Of a stretch of DNA of 21,418 bases, positions 3,073 through 18,936 are shown one piece after another. The stretch lies in IMG/VR virus record IMGVR_UViG_3300025101_000234, positions 1-21,418 of that record, one strand, 5' to 3'. Position 1 is the stretch's first letter. Each line of letters begins with the position of its first letter. Below the pieces are notes generated by a model. The model was not told where the DNA came from. It worked only from the letters and a program-made list of their open reading frames with translations, and did not search any database. The translations under genes were made by a program, and so were the position numbers. This DNA is from a virus.

Positions 3073-3756
3073 TTATTTGTCAACAGTTTTATTTTGTTCT
3101 TTTGGTACTTCAACAAAACTAAAGTTGACACTAAAGGAACGTCTTTCTCCTTCAGTTTTAAATGGATAAACACAATGAAACAATTCTGCAGGAAATACAT
3201 AAAAATCTCCTACTTGTGGTTTAACCATAAAATTAGTTTGGCTATATCCTGATGGTGTACCGTGAGCAAATTGTATATGCCCATTAGCAGGATGATGGTC
3301 TTTATAATCCTCTTCCCACTCTTTTTCAATACCATCAGGTAATGCTAAATATCCAACACAAGACATCCTAGCTCCAGTATGAATATGTAAAGGATTATAT
3401 TCATTTTGAAACTGTCTTACAAACCATCCTGAAACAATCTGTATTCCATAATTAAAAGTCTCAGTGTCTAGTTTCTGTGTTCCAAAAGAATGTCTATACT
3501 CAACGTAGTTATGTAATCTTCCTATAAATTGTGAAAATTCATCTAACCATAGTTGTTCTATTTCTTTACTAAACCTTAACTCTTGTTTAACTTTACCTAC
3601 TAAGTTATCTGACCAATCCTCTAAGTTAGGACTCATTAACTTATTCATCTTTTTAACAAAGTTAGGTGTCATCTTTTTGTATCCCATTACAGGACCAAAA
3701 GGTGCTAAGTACTCTTCTTCCTTTTTAGGAATATATATTTTACTGTGATGTGCCAT
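3073..3756 (-). CDS. 2-oxoglutarate/Fe(II)-dependent oxygenase (2OG-FeII_Oxy_5-like)
   Basis: This protein of 227 residues looks like a non-haem iron dioxygenase that couples 2-oxoglutarate decarboxylation to hydroxylation of a substrate. The iron-site pattern is visible: NPLHIHTGARMSCVGYLALP at 121-140 supplies His124 and probably His126 in place of the usual HxD, GDFYVFPAELFHCVYPF at 183-199 supplies the distal His194, and RRSFSVNF at 205-212 supplies the Arg that binds 2-oxoglutarate. The order and spacing fit the family known as CHP02466/2OG-FeII_Oxy_5, common in marine phages. It lies 9 bases after the scaffold gene and before the capsid gene, inside the head assembly module, so a virion protein is a reasonable but unproven substrate. 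A free metabolite or host protein substrate is also possible. Confidence 0.85.
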   Translation of the reverse strand: MAHHSKIYIPKKEEEYLAPFGPVMGYKKMTPNFVKKMNKLMSPNLEDWSDNLVGKVKQELRFSKEIEQLWLDEFSQFIGRLHNYVEYRHSFGTQKLDTETFNYGIQIVSGWFVRQFQNEYNPLHIHTGARMSCVGYLALPDGIEKEWEEDYKDHHPANGHIQFAHGTPSGYSQTNFMVKPQVGDFYVFPAELFHCVYPFKTEGERRSFSVNFSFVEVPKEQNKTVDK

Positions 3757-4868: not shown

Positions 4869-7800
4869 TTAATTTTCCTACAATATAACATAATGGCTCT
4901 AGTATTGCTCTTTCAACTGCACCAGCCCAATGTCGCTTACCTTTTTTCTGCATCCAAATATCAGCAGTTCTTCTACGTGCAACACCCTCTAACCACTTTC
5001 TAATAATCTTATTAGATGTATTATTATCTTTATATGCGTATCTAACAAGTGGTTTAAAAAGAATATGATAACCTATTTGATAGTGTTTGTCAAGTGTTTT
5101 ACTTTGATTTAACCAAATTGTTTGTCTAAAAGAACCAAAACCATATTGATTATTCATAGCAGTACAAACTATTTTATCATCTGACTTATCTTCTTTTTCT
5201 TCCTTCTGTTCTTTAACTACTTGTTGTGCAGCTTCTTTAGCAGACTTACCACCCTCTTTTGCTCTTACAGTACCACCAGGTTCTCTTGTTCTAACTACTG
5301 AACCTGCTTCAGCACCTGAAACACCAGACATAACATTACTTACTCTTTCTGCTTGTCTTTGGTCTTTTTCAGATTGTTCTCTTTGTTGTCTAGCTACTTC
5401 TGCTTGGGCTTCTATTGCTTGTCTTTCAGCTGCTGCTTTATCGGCTGCTGCTTTTGCTTCAGCTACTTTAGCTTTTTCTGCAGCTATTGTTGCGGCTTCA
5501 CCTTTAGCTCTAGCAGATGCAGCCATAGCATCAGCTTTTCTATCCTCAGATGCTTGTAGTGAAGCTGCTTGTTGCATAGCCATTGAGGAAGTACCTCCCA
5601 TTTTACTTGCATCATCTAATGCTTGTTGGGTTTGTTTTACAGAAGGTCTTTGTAATTCTGTAAATTCTTCCATACCTAGGTCATCAGTTGTATCTTGTGT
5701 TTCGTCAGGTTCAAAAAAGAAACCACCTCTTATAAGATTGTTAGCTCCATCAAAAGTTTGTCTATAATCTGGTTCACTTCTTACAAAAGGTTTTTTAAAT
5801 CCTTGCCCTGGTTTTGGAAATCCAAATCTATTTAATTCTAAATCAGGATTTTTAATTTGTTTTGTAACTTGTGTATCTAGTAAACCAAATTTTAATTTAT
5901 TTGCTGGTGATAAAGAACTGCCTTTTCTATTTCTATTTTCATCTAAAAAGAAAAATTCATTTGTGTTAGGGTCTCGTTCTATTTCAATTTCACCTGTACC
6001 AGGACTAAAAGCTGTTGAAATAAATCTACCTTTAGGTCTAGGCTTAGGACCTTTTTCATCAGCATCTATTTCAGATACACCTGAATCAGTACCTACTAAT
6101 GGAGGTAATGCTTCTACTGTAACATCTCCTCTAGGGTCAACAGGAGTTGTTGTCATTCCATCTGATACACCACTAACAATACCTTCCATAGTTGAAGCAT
6201 CTTCATAATCATCTAATCGTGGGTCAATTTCTGCTGCAGCTCTAACTTCTGAACTAGGTCTAGACGTAGGAGTAGGCACGTCAGATTTAAGTCTATTAAA
6301 TGCTTCTAATATACCATCTTCATTAAATAAAAACTGTGGCATACGAATACCTGTTTCACCAAATGTAGCTTTGTCTCTATTAGCTAATAGTGATTCAAAA
6401 GTTCCGTCAAAGTCCTCTGGAGCATTTTGTATTATAGATTGAACATAACCATCATAACTTCTATCTCTCATCTCTTCTTCTTCTTGTGCAACTTGTATGG
6501 CACGTTCTCTATCTTCACTAGGTTGCGTTGTAGAAACAGTCATTCCTGCTTGAACAGGTTCTTCTTCAACGGGTGCTACATAGTCACCTACTAATTCATA
6601 ACCTTTTGGTATTGGGTATAAAGGTACAAACTTACCATCTACCATACTTCCGGGAATATTAACTGTTGTTCCATCAGGACCTCTATATGTTTTAACTCCT
6701 GAAAACTGTGTTCTACCACTAGACTTTCCTACTAATGCTCCAGCACCTGGTTGAACACCTGCAGTTTGTTGTCCTTCAAATTCAGCTATATCATAGCCTT
6801 GTGGCATATTAACAATATCCCCACCTTCTCGCATCCTTCTCATCATTGGTTCTTCCTCCTCCAAATCTAAATCGTCAATAGTAAAAGGAATATCATCAGG
6901 CAGAGTAGCATCCTCTGAATTTCCCATTTGACCCATTTCTTCCATACGTTTAAGACCTGCTTTAGCTTCTTGACGTAGTGCCATAAGTTTTTCCAAACCA
7001 ATAAAACGAACAACGTCAGCAGGAAACACAAATTCGCCTTCACTCAGCATAGCTGGAATGTCATCACGAACCTCCTTTCGTAATGAACCAGATGGCACTT
7101 CATTACCTGATTCTTGGTCTACAGTTCCACCTTCATCTAGTAAACCTCCTTCATCAAACATATTCATTTGTTTTGCTTGTGCCATGCCACCCTCGTTTAA
7201 TGGTAAATAACTCATAATAAAATCAAAAGCCTGTTTAAACTTTCCTTCATTACCTTCTGTTTGTTTTCTAATTTCTTCTTGGATAGAATTAGGATTATCT
7301 AAATAACCCATAACATTTTTAATATACTTTTGATTTTCAGATTGCTTTGTACTACCGTGATAATTTTTTAAAAAAGAATCAATGCTATCTGATTGTTTAA
7401 GTTTATCTTCAATAACTAAATCAAAAAGTTTATCATAGTGTTTATCGTGTTGTTCTCTAGGTATGTTTCCTACACCTAACCCACCAAATATTTCTTTGTC
7501 TTTTTTAGTTGTTCTTATTTTTTTACCGTCTTTATATAAAGAATTATAATAGTCTATGTTTAATTTATTTTTACCTTGAGATATAAAATTTAAAGCATAC
7601 TGTTCAAACTCATCATCAAATCTACTAGGATATCTAGCTAATAAATCTTCAACAGTTGTTGATGTAATTTGCCCCGGACCAAACCCTGAAGATGAGTTTT
7701 TCTTTTTACTTACACCTGTAAAAAAATAAGGACTATCTATACTTTTTAAATAAGGTCCTACTTCATGTGCTACTATAGCTTTTTTTAAATCTGCTTTATT

Positions 7801-10320: not shown

Positions 10321-11871
10321 TTAATATCCAAACTTTTGGTCTGCTACACTCATACCCATAGAAGGTTTACCTACTGGGTCATAATCAAATATGCTAAACT
10401 TTGGTCTACTCTGAAGTCCATATCTTAAAGCATCGTATAAATGGTCTTCAGCATTTGTATCTACATCTTCAGGGTTCTTTTTATCTAATGGTAAAGAAGG
10501 CAACTGAGAAATTAAATTAGTACAATTATTAAAGATTACTAATCTAGGTTCTTCTGTAAACTCATCTATTTGTAATCTTCTATGTATTTCGTTTTTACCA
10601 GCTATTCTACTACCCCTACTCCTATCAGATGGTCTCCACCTACATCCTCTACTTATCATTTGTTCTGCAAGTGATGGTCCTAAATCACCCCGTTTGTGCC
10701 ATAAAGAACTATCTAAGACACCATACTTTATATTACCATCTCCTGCTTCTAGTGATAATATTTGGTCTGCCAAATCCGTTGCCAAAACTTTCGATACATA
10801 AAGTTCACGATAAACAACCAACTGTTCAGCAGGAGATACTGCAAACCATATAACACCACTATAAGAGCCATAACCATAATCACAAGCCCTAAACTTAACC
10901 CAATTGCTAGGAATATGAAAGGGTTCAACAACGTGTACATCCCTATTAAACTCCGTAAAAGCTGCCCCTTCTTTTATATCCCAATCACCTTCAAGAAGTT
11001 GTCTTCTTTGTTGTTCAGGTAAAGAAAGAAGCATTGCTTCATAATCACCGTTATCTGCTAAGTATGGATTGTCTGATAACCTAGCAGGTATAAAACGTCT
11101 TTTAAATAATGCATTGCCTGCTTTCTCGTGTCCAGCAGGATACTTTAAAACTTCTCCTGTATCAATATCGGTAGCATCAAATGCTTTACCAAATGCAGAA
11201 GGAGCTATAAACATTTTCTTAACCCAAGCGTGTCCTCTTCCACCTGGGTTTGTTGTTGCCCTCATATAAATAGGCAAATCAGGAGCAGTAGACCTTAGAC
11301 GAGAACGCATATAGTTCCATGCGTATGGTGTGGACCACTGTGTTAACTCGTCAAACCCTATCCAACTAAATGCTAGACCCTGATAACGCAAGACATCTTC
11401 ATCTCTATCTAGATACGACATCCACAATCTTGCTCCAGATGGTGCTGTCCACTGCATTTTTCTTTCCGACCACTTTATACCCTTCCATATTTTTGGATAT
11501 AATTCTTGAGATTTAAATATTAATTCCCTTAATTCTTCTGTGGTACGTCTTAATAATAACCCACTAAACTCTGGATGACCCATATATCGTAGAGGGTCAA
11601 CTAACATACTATAAGTTTTACCACCTCCTGCTGAACCTCCATATAAAACTTCTCTTTCATTTGCTGCGAGAAACTCTGTTTGAGGACCATCATTAGGTTT
11701 AAATATTACATTCTTTTCTTCTTCAATGCGTTCTACTTCTTCACGTATTGGCTGTGATTTCTTTTGCACCAACTCTTTCGGACTCGATTTCTTCTGCTTT
11801 TTGTATCGCCTTTTTCGCATATTCTGCCCATCTGCGTAGGCTTGTAGCTTTGTCCTTACGTTGTCTTTCAT
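10321..11871 (-). CDS. terL: Terminase large subunit (packaging ATPase and nuclease)
   Basis: TerL powers DNA translocation into the prohead and cuts the concatemer. In this 516-residue protein the ATPase signatures are clear: Walker A GGSAGGGKT at 78-86, Walker B with FDE at 173-175, and the coupling motif RATTNPGG at 204-211. The RuvC-like nuclease follows, with likely acidic residues Asp331 (RACDYGYG), Asp387 (YGVLDSSLW) and Asp480 (DHLYDALRYG). The start is uncertain. The ATG at 11871 makes a 131-base overlap with the upstream gene and has no ribosome site; a second ATG at 11820 shortens the overlap and removes only 17 residues. The first 60 residues are very basic and lie before the conserved core, so either start keeps the enzyme whole. 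It is followed immediately by the portal gene. Confidence 0.95.
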   Translation of the reverse strand: MKDNVRTKLQAYADGQNMRKRRYKKQKKSSPKELVQKKSQPIREEVERIEEEKNVIFKPNDGPQTEFLAANEREVLYGGSAGGGKTYSMLVDPLRYMGHPEFSGLLLRRTTEELRELIFKSQELYPKIWKGIKWSERKMQWTAPSGARLWMSYLDRDEDVLRYQGLAFSWIGFDELTQWSTPYAWNYMRSRLRSTAPDLPIYMRATTNPGGRGHAWVKKMFIAPSAFGKAFDATDIDTGEVLKYPAGHEKAGNALFKRRFIPARLSDNPYLADNGDYEAMLLSLPEQQRRQLLEGDWDIKEGAAFTEFNRDVHVVEPFHIPSNWVKFRACDYGYGSYSGVIWFAVSPAEQLVVYRELYVSKVLATDLADQILSLEAGDGNIKYGVLDSSLWHKRGDLGPSLAEQMISRGCRWRPSDRSRGSRIAGKNEIHRRLQIDEFTEEPRLVIFNNCTNLISQLPSLPLDKKNPEDVDTNAEDHLYDALRYGLQSRPKFSIFDYDPVGKPSMGMSVADQKFGY

Positions 11872-14136: not shown

Positions 14137-14424
14137 TTAGTTTCTGTATCCTCCACCTTTTGCTTTGTATTGTTTTGCTAACATCTGTGCTTTTCTTGCA
14201 GACCACTGCCCAGGATTACCTCCCGAACCTCCAGCTTTTATTTTATTAAATAAATTTTTACGCATTGTAGGTTTTGTATAATTACCGGCTTTGTTTACGG
14301 TGCTACCACCTTTATTTAGTTTTAAAGATGATAATGATTTAGCTTGACCTGCGTGTAGTTTACTAGCTTTTTTTAAACCTTTAATAACTTTTTTTACTTT
14401 AGTTTTATTTGTTTTACTTGCCAT
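14137..14424 (-). CDS. Lysine-rich small protein, possible DNA-binding or SET substrate
   Basis: This 95-residue protein has a histone-H1-like N-terminus packed with Lys (MASKTNKTKVKKVIKGLKKA), a Gly/Ser/Lys middle, and a C-terminal part, RKNLFNKIKAGGSGGNPGQW then SARKAQMLAKQYKAKGGGYR, that I recognise as a frequent module in marine phage genomes. No function is established for the module; its charge suggests binding to nucleic acid or to acidic virion proteins. Its ATG shares one base with the stop codon of the SET methyltransferase gene (TAATG), so the two are translationally coupled. This makes it a natural candidate substrate for that enzyme, which is inference. Confidence 0.75.
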   Translation of the reverse strand: MASKTNKTKVKKVIKGLKKASKLHAGQAKSLSSLKLNKGGSTVNKAGNYTKPTMRKNLFNKIKAGGSGGNPGQWSARKAQMLAKQYKAKGGGYRN

Positions 14425-14807
14425 TAAATTACTTCTTCTTTCCTTTTAGATAGCGAGGGTCTTGTTCCCCAATATTCTTCTCCATAGTCGTGAAGTATTT
14501 CTTCACCTTTCTGAATGGGTTTAAGAGCAAAGAATCTAATAAATCTATTATCTTCTTCACATATTTCCCACTCTGCATTGGGATTAGAACAGTGGTTGTA
14601 TACCATACCCATTCCGAGAACGATAAGAAAGTCGTTACAATTTTCTTCAGGGCATTTAAACATATAGTCGTGTAAGATACAATCTTCGCCCAAATCTTTT
14701 TCATCGATAATAAGATATGGGCAAAGCTCGATTGTATCGTTTTCTTTAAATGCTTTATTTGTGAAAACACCATGCTCGTGTATTTTTGAATCAGAAACAT
14801 ATAACAT
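14424..14807 (-). CDS. SET-domain protein methyltransferase
   Basis: This compact 127-residue protein is a nearly bare SET domain, the fold that transfers methyl groups from S-adenosylmethionine to lysines in proteins. The diagnostic motifs are in order: the N-terminal SKIHEHGVFTNKAFKENDTI (7-26), then MVYNHCSNPNAEWEI (68-82) with the cofactor-binding NHxxxPN at 71-77, then FALKPIQKGEEILHDYGEEY (93-112) with the GEEI...DYG motif and catalytic Tyr108. The short length resembles the viral SET enzyme of chlorella viruses, which acts on host histones. It shares TAATG overlaps with a Lys/Met-rich gene upstream and a Lys-rich gene downstream. There is no Cys-rich pre-SET or post-SET zinc site, though Cys29, 43, 52 and 57 are notable. 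The substrate is unknown; basic phage proteins or host ribosomal proteins are possible. Confidence 0.88.
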   Translation of the reverse strand: MLYVSDSKIHEHGVFTNKAFKENDTIELCPYLIIDEKDLGEDCILHDYMFKCPEENCNDFLIVLGMGMVYNHCSNPNAEWEICEEDNRFIRFFALKPIQKGEEILHDYGEEYWGTRPSLSKRKEEVI

Positions 14808-14992
14808 TATTTCTTCTTCTTGAGCATACCCCCACGCATCATCTTTTTCTTTTTAGCCATCTTAGCCATGCCGCCACCAGCCATTTTCTTTTTCTTTGCC
14901 ATCTTAGCCATGCCGCCACCCATCATTTTTTTCTTCATCATGCCGCCGCCACGCATTTTTTTCTTTGCCATTTTTGCTTTACCCATTGCCAT
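14807..14992 (-). CDS. Lysine/methionine/glycine-rich repeat protein
   Basis: The 61 residues are almost entirely Lys (22), Met (16), Gly and Ala, with two Arg. A repeat unit close to GGGMAKMAKKKKM recurs, and the DNA carries a matching 23-bp direct repeat. There is no hydrophobic core or signal peptide, so it is probably disordered and strongly positively charged, able to bind DNA or RNA. Short proteins of this type are frequent in marine phage genomes. The ATG lies inside the end of the upstream gene (14-base overlap). Its stop overlaps the SET gene start by one base. The repeated Lys clusters are potential methylation targets. Confidence 0.7.
   Translation of the reverse strand: MAMGKAKMAKKKMRGGGMMKKKMMGGGMAKMAKKKKMAGGGMAKMAKKKKMMRGGMLKKKK
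14856..14920. repeat. 23-bp direct repeat, 42-bp period, inside the Lys/Met-rich gene
   Basis: The 23-base sequence GCCATCTTAGCCATGCCGCC plus ACC occurs at 14856-14878 and again at 14898-14920. A shorter, diverged copy of the CATGCCGCC core follows near 14939-14949. The spacing of 42 bases equals 14 codons, so the repeat keeps the protein in frame. It is the DNA trace of repeat expansion in a low-complexity coding region, and it is more GC-rich than the surrounding sequence. Confidence 0.8.
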
Positions 14993-18345: not shown

Positions 18346-18936
18346 ATGGCAATTACTACTAAGAATATTATTGCTATTTATAGACTAGCAAAGCCTAATG
18401 AGGTAAAGCACGGAATGACTTGGTATCACAAAGCTCTTGCCGATTGTAAGGGGGTGGCATCTAAGTTGGAACTACCATTGCATATTGTTGTTGGAGTAGT
18501 GGCATCACTATCCCCTAACAATAAATGGGAACGCAATACCATAAACGCTTATGATTTATGCAATGCTTTTATAAAAGGTAATGATATGGATAGCGTTAAG
18601 GTTAGCACCTATCATACAATGAAGAAGAAGGCTTGGTATATATTGGAAGAGATGCCAACGTATGAAGAGGTGGTGACTATATTGAATGGTAAAAAGATTG
18701 TATCATTCTACAAAAATATTATGGGTGACGAATCTGAGATTACAATAGATGGACACGCAAGGAATATCTATTATAATGATAGGCAAGGGCTGACTACACC
18801 CAATACCAATATTAGAAAATTGGAATATATAGATATCCAAAAAGCGTACAAGAGGGCTAGTAAAAAGCTAGGCATCAAAGCGTATGAGTTACAAGCTATT
18901 ACTTGGGTGGCTTGGAAGAGAATACATAATATTTAA
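18346..18936 (+). CDS. Phage protein of HhH/DNA-glycosylase-like pattern (DUF7178-like)
   Basis: This 196-residue protein is helical with several conserved-looking motifs: WYHKALADCKG (26-36), VVGVVASLSPNNKWERNTIN (48-67), KKIVSFYKNIMG (116-127), ITIDGHARNIYY (132-143) and a C-terminal KAYELQAITWVAWKRIHN. The order ASLSPxxxW..N, then FYxNI, then ITIDxHA resembles a phage family I know as DUF7178. Its helical layout with an Asp in the TIDxHA segment (Asp135) is reminiscent of the helix-hairpin-helix glycosylase superfamily, where an Asp late in the fold is catalytic. I infer a DNA-binding and perhaps base-excision or repair role; there is no Fe-S cluster Cys motif. It has its own promoter-like sequence and the strongest ribosome site of the rightward unit (AGGAGG). 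Confidence 0.6.
   Translation: MAITTKNIIAIYRLAKPNEVKHGMTWYHKALADCKGVASKLELPLHIVVGVVASLSPNNKWERNTINAYDLCNAFIKGNDMDSVKVSTYHTMKKKAWYILEEMPTYEEVVTILNGKKIVSFYKNIMGDESEITIDGHARNIYYNDRQGLTTPNTNIRKLEYIDIQKAYKRASKKLGIKAYELQAITWVAWKRIHNI

Follow-up and report, generated by a model that had tools for sequence, protein, structure and literature searches.

A SAR116-type SET-domain protein encoded behind a lysine-rich repeat protein in HMO-2011-type marine phages: a candidate enzyme and its candidate substrate

What would a SET-domain protein do in the late genes of a short-tailed marine phage, and on which protein would it act? The question is raised by a 21.4-kb virus record (IMG/VR record IMGVR_UViG_3300025101_000234, positions 1 to 21,418; this whole stretch is referred to as the window), in which a SET gene lies between two genes for lysine-rich proteins. 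The window is identified as an HMO-2011-type phage by its terminase (10321-11871), which shares 82% identity with the terminase of Puniceispirillum phage HMO-2011 and 62-79% with those of the Roseobacter CRP-series phages. The genes of the SET block, entirely on the minus strand, lie upstream of those for terminase and lysis and are transcribed in the order phrog_28122 protein, a repeat protein here called KMG, SET, and a basic protein of 95 amino acids with a phrog_17747 C-terminus (Table 1). A first-pass annotation of this DNA had described the last three reading frames with one-base TAATG overlaps on both sides of SET, and all of these were found in place.

Table 1. Features of the SET block in the window
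Feature	Position	Strand	Evidence or remark
phrog_28122 protein, 176 aa	14979..15509	-	phrog_28122, E=8.4e-75
KMG protein, 61 aa	14807..14992	-	Upstream neighbour of SET; coding by codon-position test
SET-domain protein-lysine methyltransferase (predicted), 127 aa, vSET-like minimal single domain	14424..14807	-	Pfam, phmmer, AF2
Basic 95-aa protein	14137..14424	-	C-terminal 60 aa = phrog_17747, E=4.9e-34
TAATG stop/start overlap KMG-SET, one base (14807)	14805..14809	-	Sequence
TAATG stop/start overlap SET-95-aa protein, one base (14424)	14422..14426	-	Sequence; not general in relatives

The layout of the block is by itself a poor guide to function. Genes overlap by at least one base at 18 of the 25 junctions of the late block, so that TAATG coupling as such is not special here. 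Strongly basic small proteins are common as well, since six of them, with net charges of +15 to +24 and including KMG and the 95-aa protein, are encoded between 12.9 and 16.3 kb, and basic neighbours alone therefore say little. The lysine-rich flanks to which attention had been drawn are thus both indeed basic, but this is no sign in itself with six such proteins nearby. Elsewhere in the window, the gene for a putative 2OG-Fe(II) oxygenase (3073-3756; PF13759, E=2e-17) separates the capsid gene from the late gene that follows, and a DUF7178 protein (18346-18936; E=6e-39, phrog_3842) is encoded in the plus-strand block.

The SET protein itself, which is acidic (net charge -13), matches Pfam PF00856 with E=3.8e-14 and 53.4 bits (cut-off 22.4) over profile positions 2-105 of 105, while PHROGs returns a weak match to an unnamed family, phrog_28741 (E=3e-4). 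Among the PDB sequences, phmmer ranks vSET of the chlorella virus PBCV-1 first (E=1.1e-17), aligned end to end (vSET 8-118), followed by PFL0690c from Plasmodium and then Set7 from fission yeast. Structure prediction was carried out with AF2 on an alignment of 44 relatives (pLDDT 82.7, pTM 0.76), and this model was used instead of an earlier, poor one obtained with 15 close relatives (pLDDT 64). A Foldseek search with it gave 313 matches at E<=0.001, and the 50 of these 313 that were listed are SET enzymes or SET-containing complexes throughout. Fold comparison gave Z 15.0 to PFL0690c and Z 14.1 to vSET (3kma; rmsd 2.1 over 101 residues), and vSET, PFL0690c and Set7 were the top structures in both fold comparisons. 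The model therefore agrees with the compact SET domain first proposed from its motifs, NHxxxPN (71-77), GEEI...DYG (101-109) and the catalytic Tyr108, all of which are present. The residues G13, F15, N71, H72, N77 and Y108 are invariant in the 44 sequences, phage and bacterial, and Y108 aligns in phmmer with Y105 of vSET, whose replacement in Y105A or Y105F yields inactive catalytic mutants (PMC3510492). As judged from sequence and model, this is a complete SET-fold protein with an intact catalytic set. The profile and fold matches, the invariant catalytic residues and the alignment of Y108 with vSET Y105 make it very likely an active lysine methyltransferase, and the invariance of these residues across wide divergence indicates that it is under selection.

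With regard to known systems, vSET (A612L) of PBCV-1 trimethylates H3K27 of a eukaryotic algal host and is packaged in the virion (PMC7019647). The window protein is likewise a virus-encoded minimal SET of approximately 120 residues (127 in the window), devoid of pre-SET and post-SET, with 35% identity to vSET over the superposed fold and the same SYG/DYG-x-x-YW end. However, it is found in a tailed phage of bacteria, its kin are SAR116 genes and it is coupled to KMG. Moreover, the H3K27 substrate in a eukaryotic host does not apply to it, given that HMO-2011-type phages have bacterial hosts, which lack histones. By analogy, the phage protein may work like vSET in catalysis without being, in its biology, a member of the vSET-like H3K27 methyltransferases. 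A second comparison, made by description, is with Go1-SET of the archaeon Methanosarcina mazei, which methylates the chromosomal DNA-binding protein MC1-alpha in vitro (PMC3980110). Go1-SET is a prokaryotic SET enzyme too, but it is cellular, and its substrate is a folded chromosomal protein rather than a repeat polycation such as KMG. The action of Go1-SET on MC1-alpha, and that of virion-packaged vSET on a basic chromatin protein, provide a precedent for the methylation of KMG.

The closest cellular relatives of the window SET are chromosomal genes of SAR116 bacteria, with 47-57% identity over the whole domain. This rules out that the gene, framed at first in terms of eukaryotic and algal-virus enzymes, was recently acquired from such a source. 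The gene is present in single copy in 51 of 61 genomes of the SAR116 family (Puniceispirillaceae), many of them incomplete, compared with 6 of 190 genomes sampled from the class as a whole, a figure that includes the SAR116 centre genome. It is thus apparently a lineage-core lysine methyltransferase, for which no description of a function was found in the literature searched. In SAR116 it stands alone among metabolic genes, in at least four differing chromosomal contexts: with a metallo-beta-lactamase and a molybdopterin oxidoreductase; with transporters, a DMSP-lyase-like cupin and pyruvate kinase; with a pyridine-nucleotide-disulphide oxidoreductase and DUF3833; and with a TRAP transporter. 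KMG was beside it at 0 of 36 SAR116 loci, and the strict KMG DNA motif was absent from all 61 SAR116-family genomes. The tree, which is built on few alignment columns and does not give the direction of transfer, places 79 of the 80 SETs from phages in a single clade (SH-aLRT 90), with the SAR116 genes next to it. HMO-2011 itself infects SAR116. The frequency of the gene in SAR116 as compared with the class indicates that the phage SET is probably host-derived, and a single capture from a SAR116 bacterium followed by spread among phages fits best, in a direction that we infer.

This distribution also bears on the substrate. A near-core gene with varied neighbours and no KMG nearby suggests that the ancestral substrate of SET is a host protein, and makes for a serious alternative, the strongest of those considered. 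The phage SET would then be an auxiliary gene acting on the native host target of the SAR116 enzyme, such as a protein of the nucleoid, the ribosome or the translation machinery, whose function would be kept or redirected during infection, and KMG would be a mere convenient slot in the late operon, its stop/start junction giving expression. Such a role would be in keeping with vSET, whose target, H3K27, belongs to a protein of its host (PMC7019647), and with the presence in HMO-2011 of another putatively host-type gene nearby, annotated as a methanesulfonate monooxygenase. On the other hand, it accounts by itself neither for the near-absence of SET elsewhere in the genome nor for the fact, described below, that a specific type of KMG accompanies SET each time the latter is gained or lost anew. 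We regard it as a possibility of real weight, although not the probable one.

KMG consists of 36% lysine, 26% methionine and 20% glycine, has a net charge of +24 and is made up of repeats of the AKMAKKKMMRGGGM type with RGG-like steps. Owing to this low complexity it was sought by a DNA pattern and not by BLAST, and it has probably been missed by annotation in many genomes for the same reason. In HMO-2011 (NC_021864.1), an unannotated KMG repeat protein is found at the same place, between gp65 and gp66 (approximately 50,620-50,780). Codon changes among 47 independent pairs of relatives show KMG to be a real protein, as they are concentrated at position 3 (363, as compared with 70 at position 1 and 62 at position 2); a spurious reading frame is thus ruled out.

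The pairing of the two genes was surveyed in other viruses. Scans of IMG/VR for relatives of the window SET gave 32 stretches with the single sequence and 302 with the alignment, from which 79 distinct relatives with upstream sequence were used for the junctions; the phrog_28122 protein, as the constant upstream neighbour of KMG, anchored the survey of synteny. The same one-base overlap between KMG and SET was found in 57 of the 79, and the two genes were no more than 7 nt apart in 73. In five others KMG precedes SET by 177-371 nt, and in one it is absent. Judged on these sequences, the conservation of the junction exceeds chance. The exception is the contig IMGVR_UViG_3300012920_005189, the sole viral contig that carries this SET without KMG or phrog_17747. 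Its SET is also the only one from a viral contig to group with bacterial genes, and for this reason it may represent bacterial DNA or a second acquisition of SET. In eight of the relatives SET is about 20 residues longer and overlaps by 86-116 nt, in another frame, with the 5' end of the basic gene that follows.

On the downstream side the arrangement is looser. The 95-aa protein ends in the 60 residues of phrog_17747, with an invariant QWSARKAQ core, and begins with a variable lysine-rich extension. The phrog_17747 gene directly follows SET in 38 distinct relatives, and in 40 a gene-sized gap intervenes, usually coding for a protein related to HMO-2011 gp64. It is therefore the coupling of KMG and SET that is a conserved feature, and not that of SET and its downstream neighbour, so that of the pairing expected with both flanking genes only the upstream half holds. 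It could be supposed that SET methylates the phrog_17747 protein at the ARK tripeptide of QWSARKAQ, which resembles ARKS, the target site of vSET in H3. The motif GQWSARKAQ is present in 69 of 71 distinct combinations with SET, and the gene is coupled to SET by one base in the window, yet phages without SET conserve the core to the same extent (102 of 117), and the family is found in many marine phages lacking SET, including pelagiphages and methylophages. Since it is conserved without SET, and no more than about half of the phages with SET have the two genes side by side, the motif does not appear to be kept for SET, and we consider methylation at this site very unlikely. Equal partnership of both flanking genes is likewise ruled out as far as the 95-aa protein is concerned. 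Between its 17747 and 13950 homologues, the window's closest relative carries a further 334-aa Lys/Arg-rich reading frame (6554-7558 of that contig) that the window lacks.

Neither neighbour depends on SET, as both KMG and phrog_17747 occur in phages devoid of it. Of 188 distinct combinations, 185 have KMG next after phrog_28122, and since SET is missing from 116 of these, a dependence of the KMG gene on SET is ruled out. SET is distributed patchily over the phrog_28122 tree, with at least four gains or losses forced by well-supported branches and always at the KMG slot, except in the contig without KMG. No remnants of SET were found in the gap between KMG and gp64 of the phages lacking it, where the slot has other sequence, and a decayed SET is thus ruled out there. 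However, the sequence type of KMG differs with the presence of SET. The N-terminal signature GKAKMAKK was found in 90% of 60 distinct KMGs from phages with SET and in 0 of 86 forms from phages without; KKKK runs average 1.57 per KMG with SET and 0.29 without, GGGM steps 2.50 and 1.14, and valines are fewer with SET. Five well-supported independent switches of SET (11 on the best tree when support is ignored) show several of these traits following SET and almost never the opposite. With only these 5 supported pairs the test cannot pass p<0.05 (median p 0.06-0.5 depending on the trait), and the traits were picked after viewing the sequences. In pattern, then, the sequence type of KMG co-segregates with SET, and this would favour KMG as a substrate or partner of SET.

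Transfer of KMG and SET together as one block explains this co-segregation as well as co-adaptation does. SET, whether active or idle cargo, could simply move with KMG as a recombination block lying between the conserved phrog_28122 and the downstream genes, the two being linked physically and not functionally. Overlapping junctions (18 of 25) and basic genes are common in the block, the single clade of phage SETs means that KMG and SET could descend together, and the slot in phages without SET holds other sequence instead of remnants. Such neutral carriage is hard to reconcile with catalytic residues that stay invariant over wide divergence. Furthermore, the association with SET does not become stronger along phrog_28122 toward its 3' end, a weak check which speaks weakly against crossover inside that gene. 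We therefore hold neutral linkage to be unlikely.

KMG is thus the best candidate, on comparative grounds, for the substrate of the phage SET. In the explanation that we prefer, a lytic HMO-2011-type phage would express, in active form, a free-standing SET lysine methyltransferase acquired from a SAR116 bacterium, whose gene became fixed downstream of KMG in the operon of late genes for structure and packaging. Ribosomes that terminate on KMG would restart on SET at the common TAATG, as the junction suggests, so that the two proteins would be made together. The acidic SET (-13) would then methylate lysines of the polycationic KMG (+24), and the methylated lysines would alter its contact with nucleic acid or with other parts of the virion, tuning the presumed nucleic-acid binding of this RGG/poly-Lys protein in late infection or packaging. 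This explanation counts in its favour the close upstream position of KMG in 73 of 79 relatives, as opposed to its absence beside the SAR116 SET. Against it stand the occurrence of KMG without SET in most related phages, where KMG must work unmethylated, the presence in SAR116 of a SET that acts without KMG, and the small number of supported pairs, whose pattern the joint transfer of a cassette would also give. In addition, the C-terminal KKKK of KMGs from phages with SET may serve the translation of SET and not methylation. Taken as a whole, a SAR116-derived SET coupled to KMG and most likely methylating it is our leading reading, held at somewhat less than an even chance. The wider proposition, of a protein-methylation module widespread in marine phages in which the SAR116-derived SET is permanently paired with the poly-lysine/RGG protein that it methylates, and KMG serves as a chromatin-like protein of the phage, which also encodes the enzyme that modifies it, is put forward more tentatively. 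The co-segregation strengthens, if indirectly, the original suggestion that the phage methylates its own basic proteins with regard to KMG; the equal standing given to the 95-aa protein was not upheld.

The type of enzyme, a vSET-like SET, is known. In agreement with the first-pass annotation, the open literature searched yielded no description of a phage-borne member of SAR116 type located behind a poly-lysine repeat protein. There, no paper was found that ties HMO-2011-type phages to SET or SET to auxiliary metabolic genes, and among the titles listed on SET, bacteriophages and lysine methyltransferases none dealt with a phage-encoded SET enzyme. A survey paper on HMO-2011-type phages does not mention methyltransferase, histone or lysine. 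If the preferred explanation is true, lysine methylation by SET would be a heritable component, and a common one, of the infection programme in one of the most abundant groups of marine phages. The phage gene also exposes a near-universal, uncharacterised SET of SAR116, the function of which could be approached from the phage side. KMG is small, synthesizable and easy to assay, and the TAATG-coupled pair provides two short proteins with which the question of enzyme and substrate can be put to the test. A further phage SET protein, 36% identical to that of the window, is encoded at 692216-692545 of LR756501.1, a 735-kb uncultured phage record.
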